Source: an uncultured Ignavibacteria bacterium (lineage in GTDB: Bacteria; Bacteroidota; Ignavibacteria; Kapaibacteriales; UBA2268). From it: a DNA stretch of 64,000 nucleotides. The notes below the pieces were generated by a model, which worked only from the letters and a program-made list of their open reading frames with translations, made no database searches and had not been told where the DNA came from. Within the stretch, counting starts at the first letter, position 1. Every line of letters begins with the position of its first letter. Of the stretch, positions 29,422 through 36,775 are shown in pieces. The DNA lies in the NCBI GenBank assembly GCA_903862655.1, contig CAIOZA010000136.1, positions 1-64,000 on the forward strand. Reading direction: 5' to 3'. A program made the translations under genes and the position numbers.

Positions 29422-30180
29422 ATGAAGATTGTATTTCATAATAAGTATTTTGATTCAACCTATACAAATGATTGTGCATCTGTAAATGGTCGCATGGAAT
29501 CAATCATGGATGTTTTGAAAAAAGAACAGAATTATGAAATAATTTCACCCAATAAAGCAGATCTTTTCGATATTCTCGATGTTCACGAAAAGGAATATGT
29601 GGATACCGTCTTTAGGCAAAATAAACTATATAAGATGGCACTCCTTTCAGCAGGGGGTGCCATTTTAGCTGCTGAAACCGGATTCGATTCAGAACCTGCT
29701 TTTGCATGTGTTAGACCGCCGGGACATCATGCATATAAAAATGAAGCCTGGGGATATTGTCACTTCTGTAATATGGCAATTGCACTTACAAAACTCAGAA
29801 AGCAAAAGAAGATAAATTCTGCATTCATTCTTGACTTTGATGCGCATACGGGTGATGGAACTAAGGACTGCCTCAAGGATTGGAAGGAAGTTAAGATACT
29901 TAATCCAATGTCAGAACCTGATAAGTATATTGATGAAATTGAAACTTTCATAAAAGATATAGATTATGTCGATATTATAGCCGTATCGGCTGGTTTCGAT
30001 TCCTACCATTTGGATGTTGGAGGCAAACTTCAGACTTTCGATTTCTATAACATTGGTAGAATTATGAAAAACTTGTCAATAAGAATGGGCCATGGAAGAA
30101 GGTTCGCTGTGCTTGAAGGAGGATATTATCTTCCTGATCTTGGAAAAAATGTTCTGGCATTTTGCCATGGTTTTGAATAG
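29422..30180 (+). CDS. Histone-deacetylase-family amidohydrolase
   Basis: A 252-residue arginase-fold zinc deacetylase. The catalytic His pair lies in RPPGHHAY (H102-H103), the Zn-binding D140 and H142 in ILDFDAHTGDG, and the further motif is VSAGFDSYHLD. It is shorter than the 310-375 residues of typical acetoin-utilisation AcuC or acetylpolyamine amidohydrolases, mostly through shorter loops. Bacterial members remove acetyl groups from polyamines or proteins. It is followed 17 bases later by a GNAT acetyltransferase, an attractive acetylation/deacetylation pair, but this is inferred. Confidence 0.85.
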   Translation: MKIVFHNKYFDSTYTNDCASVNGRMESIMDVLKKEQNYEIISPNKADLFDILDVHEKEYVDTVFRQNKLYKMALLSAGGAILAAETGFDSEPAFACVRPPGHHAYKNEAWGYCHFCNMAIALTKLRKQKKINSAFILDFDAHTGDGTKDCLKDWKEVKILNPMSEPDKYIDEIETFIKDIDYVDIIAVSAGFDSYHLDVGGKLQTFDFYNIGRIMKNLSIRMGHGRRFAVLEGGYYLPDLGKNVLAFCHGFE

Positions 30181-30893: not shown

Positions 30894-31320
30894 TAGAATA
30901 ATCTGAATTTTCTTCTTCATTGGCTTTGTATCAAACTATGCATTAGGCTAAAATCATATTTGTCAACTATTTCAATAATTTCTCTCAACTAGACTACTCA
31001 AATTTTGTAGAATGGAATATCAAAAATCAGAATACATTCAGTTAAAAAATTTATGTATAAAACTGTTATATCCTATTCTAATTTGATTTTGCTTGGAATA
31101 TGCCATCTGAATCGATGAATCAGTATTGATATATTACAATACTTTTTTATCAATTTGATGAGAAAATATTCGGTATTTCTGACATGATTACCAATAGAGC
31201 AACTAGATGATAATTCTGAATTGATTTTGTCATTTCTGTTTGCTCGTAGTCCATTGAAAAAGATAAATAATAAAAAAAAACCTTCATAATCTTTTGAATT
31301 ACAAAGGTCTTATTGAAATG
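30894..31320. other. Intergenic stretch with no gene seen
   Basis: About 430 AT-rich bases between the TfoX-N gene and tRNA-Pro. A 60-codon minus-strand frame at 31150-31332 runs into the tRNA and looks spurious. I see no convincing hairpin, repeat or conserved element. Confidence 0.5.
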
Positions 31321-31808: not shown

Positions 31809-31822
31809 TCTACTCCAAAAAA

Positions 31823-31850
31823 AAAGGACAACTTCTGGTTGTCCTTTCTT
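31823..31850. terminator. Bidirectional terminator between the FmdB gene and atpG
   Basis: AAAGGACAAC / GTTGTCCTTT forms a 10-bp stem with a 5-base loop, with an A run before and T-rich sequence after. It lies between the convergent stops at 31808 and 31866. Confidence 0.8.
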
Positions 31851-31865
31851 TAAATTAAATGTATT

Positions 31866-32778: not shown

Positions 32779-33747
32779 TTATAAATGCTTCCAGGGTTTC
32801 ATCAAGTAATTCTTCACATAATCATCAATCGAGTCTTCTAAAGTTCCAAAGTTCATCGGAAATAGATTAGCTTCGAACTTTTCCATTTGGGCTTGAGTAA
32901 AGTTCTGATACTGATTAATTAAATTATCAGGCATGTCAATATAATTAATATTTGGATCTTTACCCATTGATCTGAATACAGCACTTACCAAGTCATTCCA
33001 ACTTCTTGGTTTACCGGTACCCATATTGTAAATACCAGTGTATTTCTCAGTTTCCTGCAATTTCCATAAAACATTAACTACATCCTTAACGTAAATAAAA
33101 TCACGCTTTTGACCACCGTCTCCGAATTCAATAGCATTGGATTTATATAATTTAACTTCACCGGTTTCTAAAATCTGATTAAATGATCTATAAACCATAG
33201 AAGCCATCTCATCCTTGTGGTATTCATTTGGACCAAAAACATTAAAGAATTTTAATCCGACGAATTCCTTGTCCAAACGATTGTCGATCAACCATAAATC
33301 AAACAGATGTTTAGATAGCCCATAAGGGTTCAGTGGCCTTAAGTCATCAAATAAGGAATCATTGTAGCCATTGGATCCATCGCCGTATGTAGCGGCACTA
33401 CTGGCATAAATAAATCTAACGTCATTTTCAGCGGCAAACCTTGCAAGTTCAATGCTGTAATTTAGATTATTGCTCATTATATAATCAACATTTGTCTCTG
33501 TTGTTGTTGAGCAAGCACCCATGTGAATTATGGTACTGATAGAATTTCTTAAATCTGTATCGAATCTGATCTTTTCAAGAAACTCGTTCTTATGAAAAAG
33601 TCTGTGGAATTTCTTTCCCACAAGATTTTTCCATTTATCTTCGGTTCCCATCCGATCAACAACAATGATATTGCTCTTGCCATTATCGTTGAATTTTTTT
33701 AGTATACAGGAACCAATAAAACCGGCTCCGCCTGTTATTACAATCAT
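32779..33747 (-). CDS. hldD: ADP-L-glycero-D-manno-heptose 6-epimerase
   Basis: A 322-residue extended short-chain dehydrogenase that makes ADP-L-glycero-D-manno-heptose for the LPS inner core. The NAD(P)-binding GGAGFIGS is at 6-13, the catalytic Tyr and Lys are in NPYGLSKHLFD, and the VDRMGTEDKWKNL and GDGGQKRDFIYVKD segments are typical of RfaD/HldD. It is wedged between atpA and atpG: its ATG overlaps the atpA stop (TAATG) and it is 25 bases from atpG. It appears intact and no other LPS genes are nearby. Confidence 0.94.
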   Translation of the reverse strand: MIVITGGAGFIGSCILKKFNDNGKSNIIVVDRMGTEDKWKNLVGKKFHRLFHKNEFLEKIRFDTDLRNSISTIIHMGACSTTTETNVDYIMSNNLNYSIELARFAAENDVRFIYASSAATYGDGSNGYNDSLFDDLRPLNPYGLSKHLFDLWLIDNRLDKEFVGLKFFNVFGPNEYHKDEMASMVYRSFNQILETGEVKLYKSNAIEFGDGGQKRDFIYVKDVVNVLWKLQETEKYTGIYNMGTGKPRSWNDLVSAVFRSMGKDPNINYIDMPDNLINQYQNFTQAQMEKFEANLFPMNFGTLEDSIDDYVKNYLMKPWKHL

Positions 33748-35904: not shown

Positions 35905-36399
35905 TTAGTTTTTAGGAAGTTTTTCAATATGTAATTCAACCAATTTTATGTGCTTTTCCTTGTCAAGTGTTTCACCTAGTAATTTTTCTGTAGCGATAAC
36001 TACAAGACCAGCTACTTCTGATCTGAGAGCAAGAATAGCGGATTCTTTACTTCTTTCAATTTCTTTTGTTGCTTCATCTACTTTTTGTCTTTTTAATCTT
36101 TCTGCTTCTTCCGATGCTTTATGGATTAATTCCTCTGCTTGTACTCGGGCTTTATGAATGATTTCACCCATTTCTTTCTGAACAGTCTGAAGCTTATTCT
36201 GACTTTCTAATAGTAGACTTTGAGCCTCAAGATTTGCTTTTGTTGCATTGTTAATCTCATCACGAATTCCAGCTTCTCTGGAACGAATTCCATTTAATAT
36301 TGGTTTAACACCAAATTTAATTAACAATACTAAAAGTAGAAAAAAGTTAATCAGAGTCCAAATCATTAACCCTGGCGATACATTTAACACATTTTCCAT
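35905..36399 (-). CDS. atpF: ATP synthase b subunit
   Basis: A 164-residue protein with an N-terminal membrane helix (about residues 10-30) and a long, charged coiled coil, the stator stalk of F0F1. Motifs such as VKPILNGIRSREAGIRDEI and the Ala/Lys/Glu-rich helix are typical. It is separated from atpE by 151 bases that contain a GC-rich hairpin (36515-36540). Confidence 0.95.
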   Translation of the reverse strand: MENVLNVSPGLMIWTLINFFLLLVLLIKFGVKPILNGIRSREAGIRDEINNATKANLEAQSLLLESQNKLQTVQKEMGEIIHKARVQAEELIHKASEEAERLKRQKVDEATKEIERSKESAILALRSEVAGLVVIATEKLLGETLDKEKHIKLVELHIEKLPKN

Positions 36400-36514
36400 T
36401 TTTTATTGAACCTTATTTATTCTTAAAATTATTTTTAAATTAAATTTTTACAGTATGGTCTTTTTCATGAATGTAAGATACAACCGTGAAAAAGATCAAA
36501 ATGAAATAAATAAC

Positions 36515-36540
36515 TGGGACCGGAGATAAAGCCGGTCCCA
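36515..36540 (-). other. GC-rich hairpin between atpE and atpF
   Basis: TGGGACCGG / CCGGTCCCA forms a perfect 9-bp stem with an 8-base loop, located 10 bases after the atpE stop in an otherwise AT-rich operon. The sequence after it on the transcript is T-rich but not a clean run. It may be a partial terminator or an mRNA-stabilising structure. Confidence 0.6.
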
Positions 36541-36550
36541 ATATCATAAA

Positions 36551-36775
36551 CTACTTAACTGCGAGCAAGATGCAAATAACCAACGAAAATAAAGCAACTC
36601 CTTCAATAAGTGCTGCAGCAATAATCATTGTTGTTCTCGAATCTCCCATAGCTTCTGGTTGGCGAGCACCAGCTTCTAAAGCAGCCACTGCCAATTTGCC
36701 AATGCCTAGTCCAGCACCTATTACAGAAATACCTGCACCAAGTCCGGCTCCCAAGTGAGCTAAGTTAATATCCAT
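36551..36775 (-). CDS. atpE: ATP synthase c subunit
   Basis: A 74-residue hairpin proteolipid forming the c-ring. It shows the polar loop ARQPEA (37-42) and the ion-binding carboxylate E58 in ALIEGVALFS. The Na+-type signature (ES after the Glu, and Gln in helix 1) is missing, which suggests proton coupling. It has a strong SD (AGGAGG) and a stable hairpin after it, as if c-subunit output were boosted. Confidence 0.96.
   Translation of the reverse strand: MDINLAHLGAGLGAGISVIGAGLGIGKLAVAALEAGARQPEAMGDSRTTMIIAAALIEGVALFSLVICILLAVK

Follow-up and report, generated by a model that had tools for sequence, protein, structure and literature searches.

The ring of the ATP synthase holds about ten c subunits per complex. 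How about ten c subunits for every a subunit are obtained from one operon is an old question, and the answers so far have been RNA processing, in one Clostridium, and largely translation, to which older work on the E. coli c-subunit level points.

In Clostridium cellulolyticum, Ccel_0267, which encodes the c subunit within the F-type ATPase operon, carries a 3' stem-loop and has processing sites at both ends, its transcript stands at 3-5-fold the level of the flanking genes', and no U run follows 28 of the 33 stem-loops of selective RNA processing and stabilisation (SRPS) described there (PMC4423207). For the cellulolytic clostridia, a second report presents stem-loops with weak U-tracts behind the binding-protein genes of ABC importers as partial internal terminators, and adds that stability also matters (PMC9045158). 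A report on M. tuberculosis gives RPKM values of 456 for atpE, 205 for atpF and 190 for atpD (PMC3207917). An E. coli ribosome-profiling study reports that, on the shared operon mRNA, depth on atpE is more than 10-fold that on the single-copy subunits, and also mentions a higher mRNA depth on atpE (PMC4378010). The ATP synthase operon of Methanococcus maripaludis is reported to lack an internal terminator (PMC10450193).

The window analysed here is a stretch of 64,000 nucleotides from an uncultured Ignavibacteria bacterium, and its atp operon is encoded on the minus strand. The features of the operon are as follows, in the direction of transcription.

38474-38244, minus strand: AtpI-like protein gene (ORF table and Pfam)
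38238-37933, minus strand: small protein gene (ORF table)
37923-36826, minus strand: atpB (ORF table and Pfam)
36551..36775, minus strand: atpE, the c subunit, 74 aa, upstream of the main hairpin (Pfam ATP-synt_C, E 8.5e-17)
36513..36542, minus strand: main hairpin, 11-bp stem and 8-nt loop CUUUAUCU, -18.8 kcal/mol (fold and hairpin scans)
36503..36512, minus strand: U-rich tail TATTTATTTC, directly 3' of the main stem (terminator-like scan and sequence)
36456..36498, minus strand: second, weaker inverted repeat TGATCTTTTTCACG ... CATGAAAAAGACCA (fold of the gap)
35905..36399, minus strand: atpF, the b subunit, the next gene after the main hairpin (Pfam ATP-synt_B, E 3e-25)
35892-35353, minus strand: atpH (ORF table)
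35306-33747, minus strand: atpA (ORF table)
33747-32779, minus strand: epimerase-family gene (ORF table and Pfam)
32753-31866, minus strand: atpG, last in the run (ORF table)
31819..31851, minus strand: hairpin after atpG with a run of 9 T, taken as the window's own reference for what an ordinary intrinsic terminator looks like

According to the ORF table, the successive intergenic gaps measure 5, 9, 50 (atpB-atpE), 151 (atpE-atpF), 12 (atpF-atpH) and 46 nt (atpH-atpA). The gap between atpE and atpF is therefore the longest of the run, and the spacing of about 5-50 bases against 151 described in the sequence-only reading is borne out. Two other features of the operon may be recorded. The gene at 32779-33747, of the NAD-dependent epimerase family, is placed between atpA and atpG and overlaps the end of atpA by 1 base. 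AtpB has 365 aa, of which the Pfam match spans 136-348 only, with an N-terminal part of about 130 aa that has no assigned role.

The perfect 9-bp stem TGGGACCGG/CCGGTCCCA that had been reported at 36515-36540, just past the atpE stop, is present exactly as described. Because the operon is on the minus strand, the RNA form is read as 36542-36513, where two further outermost pairs, A-U and U.G, extend the stem to 11 pairs, seven of which are G-C. This hairpin begins 8 nt past the TAG stop of atpE, and atpF starts 113 nt downstream of the stem. The atpE-atpF gap folds at -34.9 kcal/mol, in comparison with -20.7 (sd 3.2) for its shuffles, which yields z = -4.46, with none of 200 shuffles folding as well. 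A scan of the window for gapless hairpins, covering both strands, gave 17 with -13 kcal/mol or lower, among which the main hairpin ranks third; six shuffled windows, scanned on one strand each, contained no hairpin at -18.5 kcal/mol. The strongest gapless hairpin of the window, with 16 pairs and -21.8 kcal/mol, is found at 29631-29667, inside the ORF at 29422-30180 on the plus strand. The second inverted repeat of the gap, at 36498-36456, on which the sequence-only reading is silent, begins a few bases past the T-rich tail of the main stem. Between positions 31000 and 39500, a tRNA is the only feature that reaches the gathering score of an Rfam family (release 15). The exact arms of the main hairpin occur at a single place in the 4.07-Mb assembly, and this exact-match search rules against a REP-like repeated palindrome or mobile repeat.

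Taken singly, the window's hairpin looks ordinary and belongs to a known kind. As with the SRPS of C. cellulolyticum, a stable 3' stem-loop lies directly behind the c-subunit gene, which is needed in excess, inside an F-type ATPase operon whose downstream genes stay in the operon. Unlike that case, which belongs to another phylum and for which processing sites, northern blots and transcript ratios were obtained, the window's hairpin is known from sequence alone. The partial terminators of the clostridial ABC importers likewise combine a GC-rich stem and a short or interrupted U-rich tail with a position behind a gene needed in excess, yet they concern other genes in another phylum and their efficiency was measured, whereas here the comparison is one of sequences. 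With Rho-independent terminators the hairpin shares a GC-rich stem followed by a T-rich stretch, and its 11 pairs and loop of 8 fall within their pattern of at least 5 GC-rich pairs and a short loop; in contrast to them, it has no T run longer than 3 and the operon continues past it. The tail TATTTATTTC has 6 T in its first 8 bases and is broken by A, whereas the hairpin at the end of the operon is followed by nine T, and this difference fits read-through at atpE.

The E. coli atp operon poses the same stoichiometry problem with the same gene order, but there atpE and atpF are 61 nt apart, structure in the 100 nt past atpE is modest (z = -1.76), and ribosome density on atpE is high. Such modest structure together with high ribosome depth, and the reported lack of an internal terminator in the Methanococcus operon, argue against a general rule. 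As annotated, the gap is 137 nt in an Enterococcus faecalis record, with z = -3.29, and 40 nt in a Fusobacterium record.

Given a stem placed behind atpE and an interrupted U-rich tail, both the stopping of RNA polymerase and the blocking of 3' exonucleases are possible. We consider that the window's hairpin is probably a cis-acting 3'-end element of the atpE mRNA, a leaky terminator, a 3' protection or both, that gives an excess of c subunit. RNA polymerase would sometimes stop at the hairpin, termination being leaky with so weak a U-rich tail, and/or the long operon mRNA would be cut downstream and trimmed back to the stem by 3' exonucleases. By both routes, a short and stable mRNA whose 3' end lies just past atpE would accumulate beside the full operon mRNA, and synthesis of c would exceed that of b, delta, alpha and the other subunits, in line with the need for about ten c per ring. 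The short mRNA and the c excess are drawn from the published precedents.

Relatives of the window were then compared for structure behind atpE, the nearest of them belonging to other genera than the window's. The gene atpE was located in 57 of 60 relatives and gaps were read in 55; L018 and L057 gave no atpF at that reading, and L018 was added later. The median gaps are 51.5 nt for atpB-atpE, 96 nt for atpE-atpF, 7 nt for atpF-atpH and 29 nt for atpH-atpA, with a few gaps overstated because some Ignavibacterium-like atpF starts were probably set too far downstream. The structure test folded the 100 nt after each of these four upstream genes (atpE, atpB, atpF and atpH) against 60 dinucleotide shuffles each, and loci identical in sequence where atpE ends entered the count a single time.

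In the window's order, z <= -2 is reached after atpE in 43 of 56 loci, in comparison with 3/55 after atpB, 1/54 after atpF and 1/42 after atpH, and the mean z is -3.35 for atpE over the 56 non-identical loci, 0.51 for atpB, -0.15 for atpF and 0.04 for atpH. The phylum sample presents the same threshold in 51/85 loci after atpE, against 3/85 after atpB, 7/85 after atpF and 19/75 after atpH, so that some structure is found after atpH too. For a mixed set of named loci, the corresponding values are 28/75, 4/75, 9/73 and 13/63. When paired within loci, z after atpE lies below z after atpB in 114 of 130 (p = 6e-19). These values indicate that the structure belongs chiefly to the position behind atpE, though it is not universal. 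Gaps shorter than 40 nt seldom reach z <= -2 (0/3 in the order, 3/19 among the named loci and 3/17 in the phylum sample).

The sequence-only reading had named a stem absent from close relatives as a refutation of its proposal, a criterion that does not fit the case as phrased. As to sequence, the stem is indeed absent: by eye, the relatives' gaps share nothing with the window's stem, even in the nearest genomes, where AtpE is 90-92% identical. Most of the gaps read do, however, hold a long stem of their own soon past the atpE stop, so a different strong hairpin stands in the place of the window's. The lack of shared sequence, and the 13 of 56 order loci that fall short of z <= -2 after atpE, are what a palindrome of chance or mobile origin, having no function in the operon, would lead one to expect. 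Such an origin is nonetheless very improbable, in view of the single exact copy in the assembly, the z of -4.46, a recurrence at the atpE gap far above that at the other three places, and stems that covary in other lineages.

The element also varies over short distances. L008 and L009 belong to one genus, and a 16-pair hairpin lies behind atpE in one of the two while nothing notable does in the other, which shows that the element can be gained or lost quickly. In family f27, presumably Bacteroidales, gaps of 9-25 nt hold no hairpin in the nine loci read (L175 and L187 had no readable gap), and an excess of c is thus possible without one. Compensatory change was assessed in eight genome pairs, namely seven same-genus pairs of the window's order and the near-identical L014/L059. 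Over all gap helices, these present 10 two-sided and 14 one-sided changes that keep pairing, and 53 broken pairs. For the main gapless hairpin only, 60 pairs are the same, 9 have one-sided and 4 two-sided changes, 21 are broken and 16 gapped, a count in which a minor stem was picked for L003/L004, the real stem being bulged.

The tails bear on a further explanation, according to which the hairpin is an ordinary intrinsic terminator inside the operon and the downstream genes are transcribed from an internal promoter. The consensus terminator scan does classify the main hairpin as terminator-like, with the most G-C pairs among the 8 found, and six of the first eight bases of its tail are T. Among significant hairpins, at least 5 T occur in the 8 bases downstream in 23/36 of the phylum sample, 16/41 of the order and 7/19 of the named loci, in comparison with 4/36, 9/41 and 1/19 in the 8 bases upstream. 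Yet the longest T run of the window's tail is 3 where the operon's end has 9, and TTTTT within -3 to +9 of the stem end is limited to 4/41 significant hairpins in the order, 4/36 in the phylum sample and 2/19 among the named loci. Promoter-like sites in the region number 31, against 34.2 (sd 5.9) in shuffles, and none is listed on the minus strand within the gap, both by a sigma-70 pattern only that may not fit the phylum. An ordinary terminator with an internal promoter is therefore quite unlikely. The T counts indicate that some members resemble weak terminators and others plain stems.

Elsewhere in the phylum, hairpins of fixed form recur behind atpE. In family f25, presumably Flavobacteriaceae to judge by genome traits, and in some other families (f17, f22, f29 and f30), a fixed GGUUG loop, mostly as AAC-GGUUG-GUU, sits on stems that change fully.

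Loci with the GGUUG-loop hairpin behind atpE: L221-L228, L142, L169, L172, L232-L261

Alignment A1 used 14 of the 15 sequences found, L176 being left out. The loop is GGUUG in 13 of its 14 rows and GAUUG in the remaining one, and two-sided changes occur at 15 of 16 pairs. The covariation score is 0.844; shuffles give 0.228 (sd 0.036), and sliding the partners gives no more than 0.261. Applied to 296 genomes of the phylum, covariance model R1 yielded a match at E <= 1e-5 in 35, one per genome. The 30 best of these 35 were inspected, 18 of them from genomes outside model building, and in every one the loop lies 22-40 nt past the atpE stop; two of the remaining five (G066 and G080) lie elsewhere than behind atpE. 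In the 18 new sequences GGUUG is present throughout, the heptamer CGGTTGG is invariant, and two-sided changes are found at 12 of 14 pairs, in an alignment that was found with the model and leans towards it.

With the threshold relaxed to E <= 0.01 in 40 chosen genomes, 22 had a match, the best one being behind atpE in 17 and elsewhere in 5 (G024, G066, G126, G130 and G134, with E from 1e-6 to 4e-3). At this threshold the model missed G134's own post-atpE hairpin, even though that hairpin is one of its rows (L171), and six of the 40 genomes had further weak matches elsewhere. In 8 genomes, the 11-mer AACGGTTGGTT by itself occurs no more often than its backward control, hence only the whole hairpin is informative.

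Family f20, presumably Chitinophagaceae or a neighbour, has a second form, made of a stem, a 3x3 internal loop and a GC-NNA[G/A]G-GC tip; of 30 genomes taken from the family, 28 have it.

Loci with the GC-NNAGG-GC hairpin behind atpE: L139, L182, L189, L215, L263-L290 except L268 and L270

Alignment A3 used 29 of the 30 sequences listed, L290 being left out; 10 of 12 pairs covary and the two tip pairs are invariant. Model R2 at E <= 1e-5 matched 11 of the 296 genomes once each, all of them from f20 (two outside model building), and all 11 matches are behind atpE. Judged by these paired changes, the post-atpE hairpin elsewhere in the phylum is a true RNA motif. A search of Rfam 15 with 20 phylum loci returned only a tRNA at E <= 1.

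The partial terminator or stabilising stem by which the sequence-only reading had sought to explain c being raised over b, delta and alpha is thus a plausible proposal, better supported than its author could know, and it is partly supported as it stands. The position-specific structure, the covarying equivalents in two other lineages and the C. cellulolyticum case (PMC4423207) speak for it, while the c-excess part would hold by analogy. The recurrence of hairpins at the same spot in many relatives suggests that they may help make enough c subunit.

The same motifs bring in another reading, in which the hairpin is a regulatory site: a protein or small RNA bound to it would switch atpF and the later genes, or c synthesis, with assembly state or energy need. 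Loops that stay fixed while stems change, as GGUUG does in f25 and the other families and GC-NNA[G/A]G-GC does in f20, are unneeded by a plain end-protecting stem, and a single match per genome at E <= 1e-5 (35/296 for R1 and 11/296 for R2) is in keeping with such a site. Since the fixed loops of f25 and f20 exceed the needs of a passive stem, they suggest a binding partner there, as a lead rather than a result. The search for a conserved partner of the GGUUG loop within 700 nt returned none, however; complementary CAACC sites have no fixed place, their largest bin holding 13 matches among 30 loci, inside atpE. The window's own family has no fixed loop by eye, and the window genome has neither an R1 match at E <= 0.01, its loop being CUUUAUCU instead of GGUUG, nor an R2 match at E <= 1e-5. 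We know of no binding factor for post-atpE hairpins, and for the window's hairpin a regulatory site is a possible but rather unlikely account next to the 3'-end element.

A wider form of this idea, offered tentatively and with more doubt than conviction, is that Bacteroidota and their relatives share a family of hairpins at the 3' end of the c-subunit mRNA, by which ATP synthase assembly is gauged. In this family the stem would drift, and the tip would be a lineage-fixed putative binding site (GGUUG, GC-NNAGG-GC, or a plain stem in the window's family) for a putative RNA-binding protein or small RNA that sets the level of c relative to the rest. No description of the phylum-wide placement or of the two loop motifs was found in the open-licence literature, which is weak evidence of absence. 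A hairpin kept at one gap through much of the phylum, with lineage-specific loops for which the loci searched returned no Rfam match, would make an RNA-level answer to the stoichiometry question general, and directly testable in culturable members.

A third recurrent post-atpE form, whose core reads CCGATTGCGGC or CCGTCTGCAG and whose tails are short and T-rich, is present in the f21 loci among L140-L168, a family that we assume to be Chlorobiaceae.
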